Positions 128-39,538 of a stretch of 39,538 nt of DNA are shown here, piece after piece. Each line of letters begins with the position of its first letter. Within the stretch, counting starts at the first letter, position 1. The stretch is from a virus. The stretch is from IMG/VR virus record IMGVR_UViG_3300025087_000184, positions 1 through 39,538 of that record. The stretch is one strand, 5' to 3'. The notes under the pieces are model-generated. The model ran no database searches. It had not been told where the DNA came from and saw only the letters and a program-made list of their open reading frames with translations. The position numbers and the translations under genes were made by a program.

Positions 128-2393
128 AATAAAACAACTAAAAGACCTCTTAGAACTTTCAAACAAGCCGTATTTTTCTGTAGAAGCTGGTGCTAAAATG
201 TTTGCTGAACTCGCTAAATTCGTCAAGGATTTAAAGGTGGAGAACAACACTCGTTATTCTGAAATAATTGCTGTCGCCGACCGAATAATCCAAGACCACA
301 AATCTATTTCAAAAGATGCGGACTATGCTGTTAATTTTTTTAAGAACGAAATCTCCTCCCTTAAAAACGCCCTAGCTAAAATCAAAGAAACTAAAATTGA
401 CCGTATCATTGAGAAAACGGAGGTTATTCGTGAAACACAGACCATAGATACCGATAAAATAGTCTCTGACGCTTCACAGGAAGCCCTACAACGAACGAAA
501 GAACTGATTAAGGCAATTCCTGCACCCCTGACTGGAGAGGGTATAATTTTGGCAATAAACGACAATGAATCTGAACTAATCAAGCGTGAAAAAGTGGAAG
601 GTTTAGAGGAGATAGAAAGGAAAGCGGACTTTGCTCTTTCTCGTCCTTTAATGATGGGTGGAGGCGGAGAAGTTTTACAAATTAAAGATGGAACTAATAC
701 TACAGTTACTAAAGTGGGTGGTATTTACAGAATTAATGCTCAGGCTGGCACAGGTGGAGGAACTGTTACTTCTGTTGCTGCCATAACTCTCGGCACAACT
801 GGCACAGACCTTTCTTCAACAGTAGCTGACGGAACAACTACACCAGTTATCACTCTTCAAGTCCCAACCGCTTCAGCTACTAATCGTGGGGCTTTATCAT
901 CTGCTGATTGGTCTACTTTTAACGGAAAACAAGATGCTCTAACTTTTGGAATAGCCGATACTAATAAAGTTCAAATAAATGCTGCTGATGTCGCTGATAA
1001 TGATTACGCTAAATTCACTGCCACTGGTTTAGAGGGCAGGTCTTATGCAGAGGTTTTGTCAGACATAGGAGCACAGCCAGCAGGTTCTTATGCCGCTGCC
1101 CTTTCGGGGACTATAAATGAAATTGCTTACTTTAATTCAGCTTCAACTATTGCTTCACTCGCAGTTGCGACCTATCCTTCCCTAACAGAACTTTCTTATG
1201 TAAAAGGCGTAACTTCGGGTATACAAACACAACTTAATGGAAAACAAGCGTCAATGGGTGCTGACGATAACTATGTAACAGACGCTCAACTTATTGTAAT
1301 AGGAAATACCAGTGGAACTAATACAGGTGATAATTCTGCTAATTCACTTTATTCTGGTTTGGCTGCCTCTAAGGCAGATGTCGGACAGACATTCTACATA
1401 GGAACGACTCAGGTAGCGATAAATAGGGCTTCTGCTGCGTTAACTTTGGCAGGGCTGACACTTACTACTCCTGACATAGGAACTCCAAGTGCAGGTGTTC
1501 TTACTAATTGCACCTTTCCAACACTTAACCAAAACACTTCTGGGACTGCCGCCAATTTGTCAGGCACACCTGCTTTACCTGATGGGACAACCGCTACAAC
1601 TCAAGCAGCCGCAGATAACTCAACTAAACTGGCTACAACTGCTTATGCAGACGCTGCAGCCGCAGGTGGAGGAGCTACAACTACTTTAAATAACTTAGGG
1701 ACTACTGCCATAAATACGGCTTTACTTTTAGGAACTTCAGATGCTTTTGCTTTGGGTTCAGTAACTAAACAATGGTCTGACTTATTCCTTGCTGAAGGCG
1801 GAGTAATAAACTGGGACAATGGAGATGCTACTTTAACACAAGTGGGCGATGTTCTTACTTTAGCAGGAGCTGACTTAAAAATAACTACACATGGAACTGC
1901 TGCGACTTCAGTAGCAACCATAGACGGAACACAGATTTTAACTAACAAAACGATTGGTGGGGCTACTCCGATGTCAGGTTATATAGATTTAGATATTCCA
2001 GCAGCAGACCATACAGCGACAGGAATGACAACTAACGCCATTTTATCAGGATATACTGCTTCTGCTTTTGATTTGGTGTATTTAGGAACTGGTGGTAAAT
2101 GGCTTGAAGTAGATTCTAATGCCGTTGCCACCTGTAAAGGAATGATTGGTATAGCTTTGGAAGCTAAAAACGATACTGAAGCGATGCTTGTGGCTTTACC
2201 AGGGAGTTTTGTAAGAGATGATACTTGGGCCTGGACTATTGGTGATACTTTATATGCAGGAGAAACACTCGGAGCAATACAAAACACAATCCCAACAGGA
2301 GCAGATGCAATAATAAAAGTTGTCGGATTTGCAGTTTCAGCTGATGTTATTTTCTTCAATCCATCGCCTGACCAGCAATCCACAGTAGCTTAA
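114..2393 (+). CDS. Tail fibre / receptor-binding protein, allele A
   Basis: A 759-aa protein, presumably a trimeric fibre for host recognition. The N-terminal ~130 residues are charged and helical (probable virion attachment and coiled coil). The rest is Gly/Thr/Ser/Ala-rich with repeats typical of phage fibres (GTTGTDLSSTVADGTTTP, SSADWSTFNGKQDAL, DIGTPSAGVLTNC). The last ~130 residues look like a compact beta domain. ATG 114 is preferred to an in-frame TTG at 102 because the second copy (38591) aligns from this Met. It lies directly downstream of the 777-aa gene, when wrapped, and upstream of two small virion-like genes. Fibre identity rests on repeat style and context. Confidence 0.8.
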   Translation: MNQDKIKQLKDLLELSNKPYFSVEAGAKMFAELAKFVKDLKVENNTRYSEIIAVADRIIQDHKSISKDADYAVNFFKNEISSLKNALAKIKETKIDRIIEKTEVIRETQTIDTDKIVSDASQEALQRTKELIKAIPAPLTGEGIILAINDNESELIKREKVEGLEEIERKADFALSRPLMMGGGGEVLQIKDGTNTTVTKVGGIYRINAQAGTGGGTVTSVAAITLGTTGTDLSSTVADGTTTPVITLQVPTASATNRGALSSADWSTFNGKQDALTFGIADTNKVQINAADVADNDYAKFTATGLEGRSYAEVLSDIGAQPAGSYAAALSGTINEIAYFNSASTIASLAVATYPSLTELSYVKGVTSGIQTQLNGKQASMGADDNYVTDAQLIVIGNTSGTNTGDNSANSLYSGLAASKADVGQTFYIGTTQVAINRASAALTLAGLTLTTPDIGTPSAGVLTNCTFPTLNQNTSGTAANLSGTPALPDGTTATTQAAADNSTKLATTAYADAAAAGGGATTTLNNLGTTAINTALLLGTSDAFALGSVTKQWSDLFLAEGGVINWDNGDATLTQVGDVLTLAGADLKITTHGTAATSVATIDGTQILTNKTIGGATPMSGYIDLDIPAADHTATGMTTNAILSGYTASAFDLVYLGTGGKWLEVDSNAVATCKGMIGIALEAKNDTEAMLVALPGSFVRDDTWAWTIGDTLYAGETLGAIQNTIPTGADAIIKVVGFAVSADVIFFNPSPDQQSTVA

Positions 2394-6180: not shown

Positions 6181-6555
6181 CTATCGTAGTAAATCCTCGT
6201 ATTCAGCTTCTAACCTTGCTTTTACTGCTTGATACATAGCCACATTTACCTTATGATACATAACCGAGCGTCTTTTGAGTTCTTTGAACCAGTCCATACC
6301 TTTTATTTCAAGTATTCTAGCGTTTGTTGTAGGGTTGGGGGATTGATGTAGGCGACAATGTTCAGCGTTTGTGAGCGGAATTAAGTTATCCCAGTCATAA
6401 CGAAGCATTGATGATACACTTTTAGGCACAAAATGATGTAAAACTTGTGTTGGTAATCCTGATATTAAAGACTTAGGAAACTTTTTTCGCCCCAATTCTT
6501 GCATTAAACGGTCGGCTTCTCTCTGAAGTTTTCCTAAATTACTTGTTTTTTTCAT
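6181..6555 (-). CDS. HNH-like nuclease (NinG/Rap-type candidate)
   Basis: A 124-aa protein with a Lys/Arg-rich helical N-terminus, then an HNH-like block: HH in QVLHHFVPKS, Asn in WDNLIPL, and His in NAEHCRLHQ. This matches betabetaalpha-metal nucleases without the usual zinc cysteines. It could act in recombination like lambda NinG, or in packaging-related cleavage. It is last in a leftward three-gene operon and overlaps its upstream neighbour by four bases (ATGA). Confidence 0.6.
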   Translation of the reverse strand: MKKTSNLGKLQREADRLMQELGRKKFPKSLISGLPTQVLHHFVPKSVSSMLRYDWDNLIPLTNAEHCRLHQSPNPTTNARILEIKGMDWFKELKRRSVMYHKVNVAMYQAVKARLEAEYEDLLR

Positions 6556-6716
6556 TTTACTTCTTCTTTTATAATAATCTCTGCCTTAAAAGTCTTGTAG
6601 CCAAACTCACGACTATTTTTAATTTCTCTTTTAAGGGGTTTTTGCAAACTAACAGTTGGATACCAATCCTTTTGTTTTTGATTTATTTCTATCCAGCAAT
6701 TTATTTTCTTTTTCAT
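6552..6716 (-). CDS. Small basic protein, 54 aa
   Basis: ATG at 6716-6714, TGA at 6554-6552. Start MKKKINCWIEIN; lysine-rich, ending IIIKEEVK. The start overlaps the upstream TAA (TAATG) and its stop overlaps the next ATG (ATGA), so it is clearly the middle gene of a coupled operon even though it is short. It looks like a small beta-strand-rich protein. Function unknown. Confidence 0.65.
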   Translation of the reverse strand: MKKKINCWIEINQKQKDWYPTVSLQKPLKREIKNSREFGYKTFKAEIIIKEEVK

Positions 6717-7153
6717 TAAAATGTTGGTGTCCCGATGTCTTCGGGGTAGTTAGTGATAGGGGTGATTTTTTCATTTCCTCCAAGCCTTTTAATTACATTT
6801 CTTAAAATATTAGGTGTCATACCTATTACTTCGTTAGCGAAAGTATCATAGACCAAATTAAAGTCTTCCGAGTAGCCTTCTTCCGTATAAATCTTCCACA
6901 AATAATTCCGCATTTTCTGGGAGTTTTTACGTGGGTCTTTTGCTTTAATGATACTTCCATTATTCTTTAAAATCTCCACCGTCATTGGTTGAGCTTTGAA
7001 AGTAATATCATAAGTGCCGTTTTCATTTGAATCTTTAGACTCTTGAGTAATAGAACAGTCGCAAGCAATGTGATAGTTTTTATCTACTTCCAGTCTTTCG
7101 GGAATATTTGCCTTGCCTTGAATTTTTATAAAATAGGTATTTTCGTTCTCCAT
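6716..7153 (-). CDS. Leftward early protein, 145 aa
   Basis: The N-terminal ~75 residues are strand-rich (FIKIQGKANIPERLEVDKNYHIACDCSI), suggesting a small barrel, followed by a helical domain with a NVIKRLGG-like turn. The start lies 9 nt below a TATAAT box, implying a leaderless or near-leaderless mRNA. It is the first gene of the leftward operon diverging from the replication genes. OB-fold/DNA-binding is a guess from the beta-rich N-terminus; no family was recognised. Confidence 0.65.
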   Translation of the reverse strand: MENENTYFIKIQGKANIPERLEVDKNYHIACDCSITQESKDSNENGTYDITFKAQPMTVEILKNNGSIIKAKDPRKNSQKMRNYLWKIYTEEGYSEDFNLVYDTFANEVIGMTPNILRNVIKRLGGNEKITPITNYPEDIGTPTF

Positions 7154-7199: not shown

Positions 7200-7208
7200 T
7201 TATCCACA
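7200..7208 (+). promoter_or_regulatory. DnaA-box-like TTATCCACA
   Basis: An exact match to the bacterial DnaA box consensus, located between the divergent early promoters and about 620 nt upstream of the iteron array. A second TTATCCACA is at 9435-9443 (inside a coding region) and TTATCCATA at 11311-11319 just before an early promoter. It may help host DnaA or be a regulatory site. Confidence 0.45.
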
Positions 7209-7227: not shown

Positions 7228-7255
7228 TTGCACTAATGTTTCAATTTGATACAAT
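7228..7255 (+). promoter_or_regulatory. Rightward early promoter
   Basis: TTGCAC (7228-7233), 16 nt, TACAAT (7250-7255), with only 6 nt to the ATG at 7262. This predicts transcription starting at or next to the start codon, so a leaderless mRNA for the replication operon. Confidence 0.65.
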
Positions 7256-7261
7256 ATCATT

Positions 7262-7534
7262 ATGAAACAAATTAAAAACAAAAAAAATCCACTCTCTGGT
7301 AAAAGTAATTTTGATAAAGATGGCAATTTATGGTTAGACAAAAGAATTCCTTTTGGTGGACAAATGAAACCATCAGTTACTCCAAGAGAATGGTTCTATC
7401 TTTTATACGAGGCTTGTAAAGAAGAGGGTTTGCCAGACAATGATAAAATACCAAAGTTTATAGCCAAAGATTTAGGAAGCAGGGCAACGCAATGGAGAAC
7501 GAGAAATATACTTATTAAAAAAGGTTATCTATAA
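7262..7534 (+). CDS. First early protein, 90 aa
   Basis: A basic N-terminus (KQIKNKKNPLSGKS), then a mixed domain with WLDKRIPFGG and a C-terminal helix-rich part (SRATQWRTRNILIKKGYL) resembling a winged-helix recognition end. It is first in the rightward early operon, 6 nt after the -10 box and 5 nt before the initiator gene. It could be an early regulator or replication accessory; this is inferred from position only. Confidence 0.6.
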   Translation: MKQIKNKKNPLSGKSNFDKDGNLWLDKRIPFGGQMKPSVTPREWFYLLYEACKEEGLPDNDKIPKFIAKDLGSRATQWRTRNILIKKGYL

Positions 7535-7539
7535 ATCAA

Positions 7540-8244
7540 ATGTTAAAACTACCAGACTTCATAATAATTCCATATCAACTCCTTGAAGATAATAAAATAT
7601 CTTTGGTTGATGAGAGATTATACGGAATTATTTATTGGCTTACAAAGTTAAAAAATGAAAAGTGTATGGCTAGTAATAAAACATTATCAGAACTGATAAA
7701 ATCAACAACGGGGACAGTTCAAAATTCACTAACAAAACTTGAAGAACTTGGTTATATTAAGAGAACTTTTAAAGACATATCAAAGAGAGTTAGAAAAGAA
7801 ATTATCCCATTAGTGGTCTTTTCAAAGGTATCATTTATTAGTGATACATCAAATAAGGTATCACCCAGCAATGATACAGTATCACCCACAGATGATACCC
7901 ACGTATCACCCACAAGTGAACAGAATAAGAATATACATAATAATAAAAGAAAAGAAGATAATGCGACAGAAACTGTCGCTCCCTTCTTTTTCAAAGATTA
8001 CTTAAAAGAACTAGAAGAAGACAAGAGAAGACACATAAATGTAATCGGACACTACTTTGAAGTTAAAGGTTTAAGGTTTGATACCCGCGAACAAGCTAAC
8101 TCCGCTCTTAAAAGACATTTACGAGCTTCGGTAGAGGTTGCGAAGTTTTCCGACCGAGAAATAGTTAAGGCAACAGAACAAGCTCGGCAAGAATATAAAG
8201 ACCTTTATACTATTGAAACTATACACAAAATACTTACTAGATAA
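7540..8244 (+). CDS. Replication initiator, lambda-O-like layout
   Basis: A 234-aa protein. Residues ~5-80 form a winged-helix/HTH_36-type DNA-binding domain (LVDERLYGIIYWLTKLKN, TTGTVQNSLTKLEELGYIK). Residues ~97-128 are a low-complexity linker (DTVSPTDDTHVSPTSE), whose repeats are imposed by DNA iterons in the gene. The C-terminal ~100 residues are charged and helical and may recruit host helicase or loader. The same arrangement (DNA-binding domain, iteron-coded linker, partner domain) is known for lambda O. No SD site. Confidence 0.72.
   Translation: MLKLPDFIIIPYQLLEDNKISLVDERLYGIIYWLTKLKNEKCMASNKTLSELIKSTTGTVQNSLTKLEELGYIKRTFKDISKRVRKEIIPLVVFSKVSFISDTSNKVSPSNDTVSPTDDTHVSPTSEQNKNIHNNKRKEDNATETVAPFFFKDYLKELEEDKRRHINVIGHYFEVKGLRFDTREQANSALKRHLRASVEVAKFSDREIVKATEQARQEYKDLYTIETIHKILTR
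7828..7966. other. Probable replication origin: four dyad iterons plus AT-rich stretch
   Basis: Four 20-bp dyads of form GTATCA-N8-TGATAC lie inside the initiator gene at 7828-7847, 7858-7877, 7879-7898 and 7903-7922. The first three have perfect outer arms; the fourth has TGAACA on the right. The next ~45 bases (7921-7966) are almost all A/T, a candidate unwinding element. This copies the plan of the lambda origin, which lies within gene O. Confidence 0.75.
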
Positions 8245-14627: not shown

Positions 14628-14911
14628 AAAAATGTAATCATTTACCAAGCACAACACTAGCAACCCATAATGGGGTATGTGATGATTGTCTTAAAGAACA
14701 AAAACTCATAGACGGTATCTTTGAAATTAAAGAAAAAGAATTACAGGTTTATAAAGATACCTTATTAGAAAAGATAAAAGGAGTAAGAAGAGACGCATTA
14801 AGTCAATTTTGTTATCAAGGAGCACCAACTAAAGCTGAAGTTGCCCGACAAAAGTTAATCGGTGAAGGATATAAACAAGCCAAAGATGATATAATTAAAT
14901 TACTAAAATGA
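14624..14911 (+). CDS. Small Cys/helical protein, 95 aa
   Basis: The N-terminus (KKCNHLPS, GVCDDCLKEQ) has a possible zinc site, followed by a long charged helix and YKQAKDDIIKLLK at the end. Its TGA overlaps the start of the DGR-target-like gene (ATGA), so the two are translated together. Function unknown. Confidence 0.55.
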   Translation: MKKCNHLPSTTLATHNGVCDDCLKEQKLIDGIFEIKEKELQVYKDTLLEKIKGVRRDALSQFCYQGAPTKAEVARQKLIGEGYKQAKDDIIKLLK

Positions 14912-15411
14912 AAAAACAACAAATATTAGAGAAAATAAGTGACTTATTAGATAGCTATGATATTCCTAACACAATAGGTAAAAGTTTTGAAGACCATAAC
15001 TTCAAAGTAAATAGCAATGGTTGGAGGAAAATCACGGTAAATGATAAAATATATCTAGAAAATGACACTAAAGACATTTGGGAACTTTTAGAGGGATATT
15101 GTAAAGGAGAACAATTATTTACTTGGGACTCAGCAATGCGAGAAACCAAGAAAGCTGGTAAAACCATTCCTAGTGATGATGATTTTACTAGATTACTAAA
15201 GACTAAAGACGATATACTAAATGTTGTCTTCCCTGGCCACCGCGATACCAATGGTTCTTTCGACGGTCTTGGGGCGATCACGTACTTATGGTCTTCGCTT
15301 GAGAGTGGCGGTTCGGCTTGGACACGGGACTTGGGTTCGGGCTACGTCTCGGTGGGCCGGGGCACGGGCGGTAAGGCTTACGGTTTCTCGGTTCGTTGTT
15401 TGAAGGATTAA
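14908..15411 (+). CDS. C-type-lectin-fold protein, likely DGR target
   Basis: A 167-aa protein. Residues ~1-65 are helical and variable. Residues ~70-167 match the FGE-sulfatase/Fib_succ_major (CLec) fold used by diversity-generating retroelement targets: FTWDSAMRETKKAGKTIPSD, then PGHRDTNGSFDGLG, YLWSSLESG, and the C-terminal GFSVRCLKD. The last ~180 bases are A-poor and GC-rich, unlike the rest of the gene, as expected when template adenines have been mutagenised. No reverse transcriptase or template repeat is in the window. The ligand is unknown; such proteins usually bind variable surface targets. Confidence 0.75.
   Translation: MKKQQILEKISDLLDSYDIPNTIGKSFEDHNFKVNSNGWRKITVNDKIYLENDTKDIWELLEGYCKGEQLFTWDSAMRETKKAGKTIPSDDDFTRLLKTKDDILNVVFPGHRDTNGSFDGLGAITYLWSSLESGGSAWTRDLGSGYVSVGRGTGGKAYGFSVRCLKD
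15229..15408 (+). repeat. Putative DGR variable region (VR)
   Basis: In 15301-15400 I counted A 10, C 21, G 43 and T 26, against strongly A-rich flanks. A second reading frame is also open for 60 codons here because A-containing stop codons are scarce. The 3' end, coding GFSVRC, is where the initiation-of-mutagenic-homing element would sit. No adenine-rich template copy was found elsewhere in the window by eye. Confidence 0.65.
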
Positions 15412-22634: not shown

Positions 22635-24271
22635 ATGGCTTTTGCATCCCCAACCGCAGCTTTTACCGCTGCTGATTCGGTCGCCTTCATTGGTGAAGTA
22701 TGGTCAGATTTAGTTCTGATGCCTAACTTCCCTAATGCTTGTGCCTCAAACTTCTTTACCGATTTATCGTCTTACGCCTCAGACGGCGGTGACATAATTC
22801 ACGTGCCAAATATCTATACCAACACCTTTACTGCTTCAACGCAGTCAACTCAAGGTAATGGTGTTGTAGACCAGTCACCTACATCCGTAGATGTGACCTT
22901 GACCATTAACACTCACGTGTATGTAGCTTGGATTATCGGTGATTTGGAAATGGTTCAAATGTTCAAGAAATACGCTATCAACGAGAAATACATTCAAGTC
23001 GCTAAGGAAGTCCTTATTGCCGCTTTGGAAGTATCACTCTTTGGTTTGTGGTCAAACCTTTCAACTAACGTAGTTGGAGATACTGCTACCGTGTTAACAG
23101 ATAACGAAATCGTCCAAGCTATTGAGAAACTTGATAGTTTGAACTACGATGTGATGAATAAGGCAGCCTTTTTCTTCCATCCCTTAACCCAAACAAAACA
23201 GGGGGATGTAAAATCTTTTTTAATTGACTTGAACGCTGAAATGCCAACAAGGGCGAACGTAGTATCAATCTACTATGACGCTGAGAGACTAAACAAAAAG
23301 ACACTGGAAACGGTGATGCGATAGTCCGACCTTATAGGAATTAAAAACTATAAGATGTAAGCAGAAATGACTTGCACTTTGAAAATTGATGTGATACACT
23401 GTATAGTATGTTAGACACAAAACAACTTACAGATGCAGAGTTTAGGGGTTTCTTCTATGCTGACGGTTGTGCTCAGATAGTTCGTTATAACCACAATTCT
23501 TACTACAAAGGAAAGAAAAGTGTATATGACAGCTTCCGATGCCAGCTCTCAATAATCCAAAGAGATGATAATAAAGCACTCTTGGAGAAAATAAAAGAAA
23601 TCTACGGTGGATTTATTTACTTGAAACGAGTAACGAAAAGTAATTATAAAAACTCTAACCCTTGCCTTTGTTGGGTTTCAACCAATGTTGAACTCAACGA
23701 CAAACTCTGCGAGATTTTACTAGACACTAAGTTTCCTTATAGAAATTATGATGCGGTCAAGGCTTGCTCTGAATACTGCAAGCACCGACTGAAAGAAGCC
23801 CGAAACGCTAAACATAAAGAAGGAGACAAAGAGTTCTATCAGGAACTAAGAGACCGAGTTGTAAAAGCACATCAATATCAATCGTAACAGAATGTTGTTT
23901 ACTGGAGACAAATAGCTACTATCGCTAAATACTACACCTTTAACACTTCTCAACTTCCAATCATCCGAGACGGTAACTTCGGTTCAATGGATAAGAGCCG
24001 TGGTCTAAGGGGTCAGTTGTATGGTATTCCTATTTACACATCTACAAATGTTGTAAAAGGTCTATCAACCTACCGAAACTTGTTAGCAATGCCTGAGGCT
24101 TTTGCCTTTGCAATGCAGACTCGTGGTGGTGGAAAGGTTCGTTCTCAAGTTGCTTACCAGTTGCAAAATCTTGGAACTCTTGCAGTCGTAGATTTAATCT
24201 ACGGTGTATGTGAGTTAAGAGATGCCGCCGCTGTGTTAATCAACAGCAATGATACCGACATAACTTCATAA
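22635..24271 (+). CDS. Major capsid protein, split by a group I intron
   Basis: Predicted join of 22635-23184 and 23895-24271, giving 308 aa. Exon 1 ends HP + T; exon 2 supplies TT then VYWRQIATIAKYY, so the junction codon is TTT and the frame is restored. The remainder (NTSQLPIIRDGNFGSM, RGLRGQLYGIPIY, AYQLQNLGTLAVVDLIYG) reads like a phage coat protein with C-terminal strands. Without splicing, translation would enter the intron and stop at 23322-23324. It is followed by a strong terminator, as expected for a highly expressed head gene. Confidence 0.8.
23185..23894 (+). mobile_element. Group I intron, 710 nt, in the capsid gene
   Basis: Core seen directly: P6 GTAGTA/TACTAT (23259-23264, 23271-23276); P7 GACTA/TAGTC (23287-23291, 23322-23326); P8 CACTG-GAAA-CGGTG (23302-23315); P9 CTTATAG/CTATAAG (23331-23337, 23348-23354). 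P1 pairs exon CATCCCT with GGGGATG (23202-23208), leaving U184-G202 wobble at the 5' site. The exon-2 start TTGTTT (23895-23900) pairs with AAACAG-side bases 23196-23201 as P10. The last intron base is G. P3-P5 were not fully drawn. Confidence 0.82.
23408..23887 (+). CDS. LAGLIDADG homing endonuclease in the intron
   Basis: A 159-aa single-motif enzyme; the LAGLIDADG helix is LTDAEFRGFFYADGC at residues 7-21 with catalytic Asp19. The rest (YDSFRCQLSIIQRDDNKALL, IYGGFIYLKRV, CWVSTNVEL) fits the alpha-beta-beta-alpha-beta-beta-alpha fold; it would act as a homodimer, cutting intron-less capsid genes. It lies after the P9 hairpin, starting 223 nt into the intron and ending 7 nt before the predicted 3' splice site. 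Confidence 0.88.
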   Translation: MLDTKQLTDAEFRGFFYADGCAQIVRYNHNSYYKGKKSVYDSFRCQLSIIQRDDNKALLEKIKEIYGGFIYLKRVTKSNYKNSNPCLCWVSTNVELNDKLCEILLDTKFPYRNYDAVKACSEYCKHRLKEARNAKHKEGDKEFYQELRDRVVKAHQYQS

Positions 24272-38596: not shown

Positions 38597-39538
38597 GATA
38601 AAATACAAAACTTAAAAGAACTACTCGCCCTAGCAAACAAGCCGTATTTTTCAGTATCGGAAGGGGCTAAAATGTTTGCCGAACTCGCTAAATTCGTCAA
38701 AGATTTAAAGGTGGAGAACAACACTCGTTATTCTGAAATAATTGCTGTCGCTGACCGAATAATCCAAGACCATAAATCTATCTCAAGGGATGCTGACTAT
38801 GCGGTGAATTTTTTTAAGAATGAAATATCCTCCTTAAAAAACGCTCTAGCTAAGATTAAAGAAACTAAAATTGACCGTATTATAGAGAAAACAGAAGTAA
38901 TTAAGGAAGTCCCGTTTGTAGATGCCCAACATATTGCCCAGAATGGGGCAAAAATAGCCCTAGAACAGCTTAAACCACTCATTCCGGAGATACTACCATT
39001 CCCCACTTCTACTGCTATAATTGAAGGCATAAACGAAGAAGAGGAAACTTTAATTAAGCGTGAAAAAGTGGAAGGCTTAGAGGAGATAGAAAGGAAAGCG
39101 GACTTTGCTCTTTCTCGTCCTTTAATGATGGGTGGGGGTGGGGAAGTTTTACAAATTAAAGATGGGACTAATACTACAGTTACTAAGGTGGGTGGTATTT
39201 ATCGTATCAACGCTTCTGGTGGTAGTGAATACACCCTCCCCACCGCCTCCGCTTCTGTCCTTGGTGGTGTAAAAATCGGTGCACGACTCACAATGACAGG
39301 TGATGTCTTGTCGGCTGATGTGCAAGCAGGAGGTGGAACTGTTACTTCTGTTGCTGCTCTAACTCTAGGCACAACAGGCACAGACCTTTCTTCAACAGTG
39401 GCAGATGGAACAACTACACCAGTTATCACCTTACAAGTTCCAACCGCTTCAGCTACTAATCGTGGGGCTTTATCATCTGCTGATTGGTCTACTTTTAACG
39501 GAAAACAAGATGCTCTAACTTTTGGAATAGCCGATACT
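38591..39538 (+). CDS. Tail fibre, allele B (partial, runs off window)
   Basis: Starts MNDKIQNLKELLALANKPYF and is open to the window end, about 316 codons. Compared with allele A, residues ~25-100 match closely, ~102-150 are replaced (KEVPFVDAQHIAQNG in place of RETQTIDTDKIVSD), ~160-210 match again, then about 35 residues containing YTLPTASASVLGG are inserted before the GGGTVTSVAA block. The pattern is that of recombining fibre alleles. Confidence 0.8.
   Translation, partial: MNDKIQNLKELLALANKPYFSVSEGAKMFAELAKFVKDLKVENNTRYSEIIAVADRIIQDHKSISRDADYAVNFFKNEISSLKNALAKIKETKIDRIIEKTEVIKEVPFVDAQHIAQNGAKIALEQLKPLIPEILPFPTSTAIIEGINEEEETLIKREKVEGLEEIERKADFALSRPLMMGGGGEVLQIKDGTNTTVTKVGGIYRINASGGSEYTLPTASASVLGGVKIGARLTMTGDVLSADVQAGGGTVTSVAALTLGTTGTDLSSTVADGTTTPVITLQVPTASATNRGALSSADWSTFNGKQDALTFGIADT

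Follow-up and report, generated by a model that had tools for sequence, protein, structure and literature searches.

The stretch analysed here (the window) comprises all 39,538 bases of an IMG/VR virus record. Its last open reading frame (from 38579 up to the end of the record) and the first one (102–2393) match one and the same 1,205-residue protein of a relative, and the record therefore probably represents an almost entire genome in circularly permuted form, with mostly structural gene content. A leftward gene pair (6181–7153) opposes a rightward early operon beginning at 7262; upstream of this operon lies a sequence match to a DnaA box (TTATCCACA, 7200–7208, plus strand). The second gene of the operon (7540–8244, plus strand) encodes a 234-residue protein, which was assigned as the replication initiator from its matches to HTH_36 and to phrog_270 and 428 (replication initiation protein) and from its AlphaFold model. 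Polymerase, primase and helicase families found no match among the record proteins scanned; the genes downstream of the initiator match no family, and no P-like helicase loader was recognised.

The initiator consists of a winged-helix domain (approximately residues 7–77), a disordered linker (residues 80–148) and a conserved C-terminal domain (residues 149–234; codons 7984–8244, plus strand). The protein scores 25.6 bits against Pfam HTH_36 (PF13730), above the curated cut-off of 25, with a second score of 28.1 bits, and has no profile match to Pfam Phage_rep_O (PF04492). PHROG 270 is matched with an E-value of 5.3e-11 over residues 7–140, which span the N-terminal domain and the linker, and phrog_678 (replication initiation O-like) with an E-value of 3e-7. 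In the AlphaFold model, the winged helix is predicted confidently and the linker has a pLDDT below 50; for the C-terminal domain, five helices are predicted with a pLDDT of 79. Fold searches with the N-terminal domain returned MarR-like matches. For the C-terminal domain, no fold match stood out, no Pfam, PHROG or PDB-sequence relative was found, and hhalign comparison with lambda O and two other initiators gave nothing; two scans of genome contigs with this domain found zero relatives.

The linker codons harbor a series of interrupted palindromes, each about 20 bp long and all on the plus strand. Three perfect copies of the dyad GTATCA-N8-TGATAC lie at 7828–7847 (spacer TTTATTAG), 7858–7877 (spacer CCCAGCAA) and 7879–7898 (spacer CCCACAGA), followed by a degenerate fourth unit at 7903–7922 (GTATCACCCACAAGTGAACA), in which the left arm GTATCA is perfect and the right arm reads TGAACA, with three mismatches. 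A preliminary description of this DNA had counted four dyads in the linker-coding part of a winged-helix protein gene; their placement is as described, between the codons of the DNA-binding and C-terminal domains, and the start-to-start distances of 30, 21 and 24 bp are correct if the fourth unit is included, but this unit contributes a left arm only, so that the series amounts to three and a half dyads. No perfect copy exists elsewhere in the 39.5-kb record. With up to two mismatches, the window contains seven matches to the dyad compared with 1.4 expected, a number reached in none of 100 shuffles. Counted as half-sites, the initiator gene has seven within 130 bp, the highest density of any open reading frame in the record, while codon-shuffled versions have a maximum of four.

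The left arms of all four units share one reading frame, in which GTA TCA encodes Val-Ser. When the linker was resampled synonymously with the protein held fixed, only 3 of 200,000 trials produced three dyads and not one produced seven half-sites; it is therefore the choice of codons, and not the VSP/DT peptide alone, that favors the dyads. The dyad arms are invariant whereas the 8-bp spacers diverge (2/8 and 5/8 positions identical), which identifies the arms as the part that is kept. The earlier proposal that the VSP/DT repeats of the protein are dictated by the DNA gains support from this codon choice and from the relatives described below, in which the linker peptides are unrelated.

Immediately 3′ of the dyads, at 7920–7962 (plus strand), lies an A-rich, purine-rich tract with 82% AT and the lowest duplex stability in the gene, which probably serves as the unwinding element. 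The AT-rich block noted previously is thus real (82% AT at 7920–7959); this 40-bp segment unwinds more easily than any other in the gene and ranks among the easiest 0.23% of the record. The interval first assigned to the origin, 7828–7966, is incomplete, as it cuts off a 17-nt GC hairpin at 7963–7979 that had been missed. This hairpin, GCGACAG-AAA-CTGTCGC, stands at the boundary to the C-domain codons and is the only one in 39.5 kb to combine a stem of 6 or more, 5 or more GC and a loop of 3–5.

Among 2.9 million viral contigs scanned, two phages (IMG/VR 3300019873_000002 and 3300034073_002127) share the C-terminal domain at 61–62% identity and carry a hairpin in the same slot, whereas their N-terminal domains and repeats are unrelated in sequence to those of the window. 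A further candidate relative of this domain, L008, was rejected as a spurious match within another protein. The GTATCA dyads themselves are kept in no close relative. The same protein without dyads, which would speak against an origin, was not encountered; the relatives carry other dyads instead. The linker of locus L001 encodes four copies of AAGTGGAACC at spacings of 23, 21 and 22, and that of L002 four copies of TTATC-N6-GATAA, with fewer than 0.05 expected in each case. The N-terminal domain of L002 is an authentic lambda O domain (Phage_rep_O E-value 2.8e-22, compared with 5.7e-36 for lambda O itself). The downstream genes of the window and L001 have no recognisable relationship, and the tract on the 3′ side of the repeats in genome G001 is unexceptional in its ease of unwinding (40th percentile).

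Phage G009 is closer to the window by its structural genes, with a portal identity of 94.8%, and its genes flanking the initiator locus are syntenic (identities of 52% and 34% for the left-hand genes and 59% for the right-hand side). At this same locus it encodes an unrelated initiator, with four copies of GCCTAMGTNG in the matching place (0.17 expected). A fourth phage (terminase identity 62%) differs again in its initiator, which contains repeats and a lambda-O-like C-terminal domain. As judged from these sequences, one C-terminal domain is combined with three sets of N-terminal domain and iterons, and one locus is occupied by two unrelated initiators, as expected if the binding domain and its sites travel together. 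Because a single DNA segment contains the binding domain, its sites and the tract, these move between phages as a matched cassette; module exchange is here visible in the act.

The GC hairpin follows the same pattern. In the window, L001 and L002, the hairpin with the best stem score of the initiator gene occupies the same place, after the AT tract and before the conserved C-domain codons. Ranked by folding energy, it is at the top in the window and L002, and in L001 it is surpassed only by a fold of the iteron region. All three hairpins are 17 nt long and fall in the same columns of the protein alignment, with different encoded residues (ATETVA, AETSSA and APASGA). Three of the six base pairs never vary, and the other three change on both sides, so that pairing is kept in all cells of the comparison. 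Hairpins of this class are also scarce in the relatives: they occur at three distinct places in G001 and at two in G002, each count including the hairpin in question. Synonymous resamples kept the pairing in 8–11% of cases in each phage (jointly about 7e-4); this test is weak on its own because the amino acids partly force the pairing, and the rarity of the hairpin in the records and its paired changes weigh more. The hairpin is probably a fourth part of the replication cassette. As an intrinsic terminator, it would fit G001, where the stem is followed by TTTTTGTTTTT, and weakly the window, but neither G002 nor the Lactobacillus phages discussed below, and this function was rejected.

The placement of an origin inside its own initiator gene has long been known, since lambda. 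The lambda iterons are hyphenated inverted repeats within gene O that are bound by O dimers, a 38–39 bp AT-rich region beside them is the place of unwinding, and the origin ends at 39160 (PMC6022878, PMC3349717, PMC5043065). Analyzed with the same tools, lambda O (NC_001416) has its four annotated iterons at 39034–39118, with spacings of 20, 24 and 23, followed by a purine-rich AT tract and a palindrome (39162–39189) with 12-bp arms and one mismatch. The region 39034–39189 of lambda thus resembles the window in its interrupted palindromes about 20 bp apart, its purine-rich AT tract and its palindrome, all within the initiator gene between the N- and C-terminal domains. The two differ in the sequences of iterons and palindrome and in both protein domains; the C-terminal domain of the window protein shows no relation to that of lambda O. 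The lambda O/ori plan proposed in the preliminary description is accordingly present, and it recurs with different repeats in the two phages that share the C-terminal domain and in the one that shares the locus. The accompanying remark that the phage bears no other sign of lambda ancestry was too strong, given that a relative has the same C-terminal domain fused to Phage_rep_O and that the window protein matches phrog_678.

Based on this organization and on the comparisons, which support it well, 7828–7979 is very probably a replication origin embedded in the gene of its own initiator. By analogy with lambda, binding, melting, helicase loading and firing would proceed as follows. The winged-helix domain, whose codons precede the sites, would occupy the GTATCA-N8-TGATAC dyads as dimers, giving rise to a wrapped complex, the strain of which would open the adjacent A-rich tract (7920–7962). 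Recruitment of the host helicase would then fall to the C-terminal domain, possibly aided by a small protein from a downstream gene, as suggested by the lack of a recognised polymerase, primase or helicase gene in the record, and theta replication would begin. An uncultivated phage group would then have a self-contained replicon in the style of lambda. A GC-skew analysis, suggested earlier as a check, gave no mark at 7.9 kb and is uninformative because the skew follows gene orientation.

The dyads could instead be operators through which the winged-helix protein regulates its own operon, with the origin located elsewhere. Initiators often autoregulate, the winged helix is MarR-like, and a TGATAC half-site at 7247–7252 overlaps a possible −10 element of the early promoter (see below). 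The dyads, however, lie 290 bp inside the gene rather than at a promoter, and are followed by the A-rich tract; the PHROG label is that of a replication initiation protein and the kin protein is a Phage_rep_O member; and relatives with other repeats show this arrangement within the linker again. We consider a purely regulatory role very unlikely. Still harder to sustain is the idea that the repeats have no DNA function and are a by-product of a low-complexity linker (VSPxxDT) that grew by codon duplication. It would account for the common reading frame of all copies, and the linkers of such proteins are disordered, but it is at odds with invariant palindromic arms beside diverging spacers, with the rarity of three dyads among synonymous resamples and with the reappearance of repeats in relatives whose linker peptides are unrelated; we regard it as highly improbable.

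Finally, replication might start at the DnaA box regions (for example 7200 or 9435), fired by host DnaA, with the in-gene sites only assisting. The box TTATCCACA is indeed enriched, with 12 copies in seven related records against an expectation of about 3.1, and three phages have it no more than 350 bp upstream of the initiator. These are single boxes at promoter-like positions, however, one of them at a promoter without an initiator behind it, and an effect of DnaA on the promoter, as reported for lambda (PMC3985674), fits better, which makes this possibility very unlikely. The embedded origin at 7828–7979 remains the preferred interpretation.

Outside the relatives of the window, hairpins were also found in the slot between AT tract and C-domain codons. 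In Lactobacillus phages with DnaD/O-like initiators (JNU_P1, TMW 1.706 P2 and IMG/VR kin), the N-terminal domain is of a type related to that of the window, and in-gene repeats, an AT tract and a GC hairpin again precede a conserved C-terminal domain, which belongs to a different family. The stem varies while pairing is kept, with the forms GTCGGG-CAAR-CCCGAC, GGTCAGGC-ACA-GCCTGACC or ACCCCCT-TAC-AGGGGGT. The gene 18 origin of P22 similarly combines repeats and a hairpin (CCCCCTT-N8-AAGGGGG) inside an initiator gene, with domains and sequences that differ from those of the window, and its annotated extent ends exactly at the hairpin. The corresponding slot of Erysipelothrix phage SE-1 holds GTTTTGGA-N7-TCCAAAAC, and 80 close relatives of lambda retain its palindrome with minor changes. 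In the same survey, the slot hairpin was not seen in G009 and not found in TP901-1, phi80 and a Butyrivibrio phage; the survey is descriptive, because the slot was defined after the first cases had been seen. The accepted minimal lambda origin (39034–39160) does not include a hairpin element (PMC3349717). Tentatively, and with somewhat more doubt than confidence, we propose that the hairpin is a selected fourth part of embedded phage origins generally, with compensatory change across unrelated initiator families, where it may mark the end of the melted region, the entry of helicase or primase, or the joint of cassette exchange. As a possibly overlooked cis element of embedded origins, the recurring hairpin is the part most worth pursuing.

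Several further features were observed around the initiator genes. In the window, the half-site at 7247–7252 overlaps a possible −10 element (TACAAT) of the early promoter, inside TGATACAATATCA, and the initiator may possibly regulate its own synthesis through it. DnaA boxes are located at 7200 (before the early operon) and 9435 (before the next operon) in the window, at 5414 in L002 and at 1872 and 703 (minus strand) in L045; a box also precedes the initiators of G002 and G009. The box usually reads GTTATCCACAGCC, a short distance upstream of a promoter-like site, and it flanks the swapped replication cassette in the window and G009. These positions suggest that host DnaA acts on the promoters, as in the lambda case (PMC3985674).

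In three related phages, a 5′ leader with two interleaved, pseudoknot-like helices (A..B..A′B′) ends 15–18 nt before the initiator start codon (L001 5868–5932; L002 5476–5574; L045 about 1750–1860, minus strand). Their sequences differ, and each score was reached by 0 of 200 Markov shuffles. The leader is absent in the window and gave no credible Rfam match; it may possibly exert translational control of the initiator. The initiator of phage G004 (L022 3183–4241) has an HNH endonuclease domain inserted between the N-terminal domain and the repeats. In a Lactobacillus-type phage (L138 960–1010), the N-domain frame stops right after the hairpin and the C-terminal domain continues in another frame, which may reflect a frameshift site, a split gene or a sequencing error.

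Elsewhere in the window, the protein encoded at 14908–15411 is Fib_succ_major-like, ends in SAWTRDLGSGYVSVGRGTGGKAYGFSVRCLKD and resembles the target of a diversity-generating retroelement; a search of the record found no template repeat for it. The major capsid gene (22635–24271) is apparently split by an insert that contains a LAGLIDADG endonuclease reading frame (23408–23887). As the capsid gene of G009 is single and uninterrupted, this insert is likely a group I intron or an intein.
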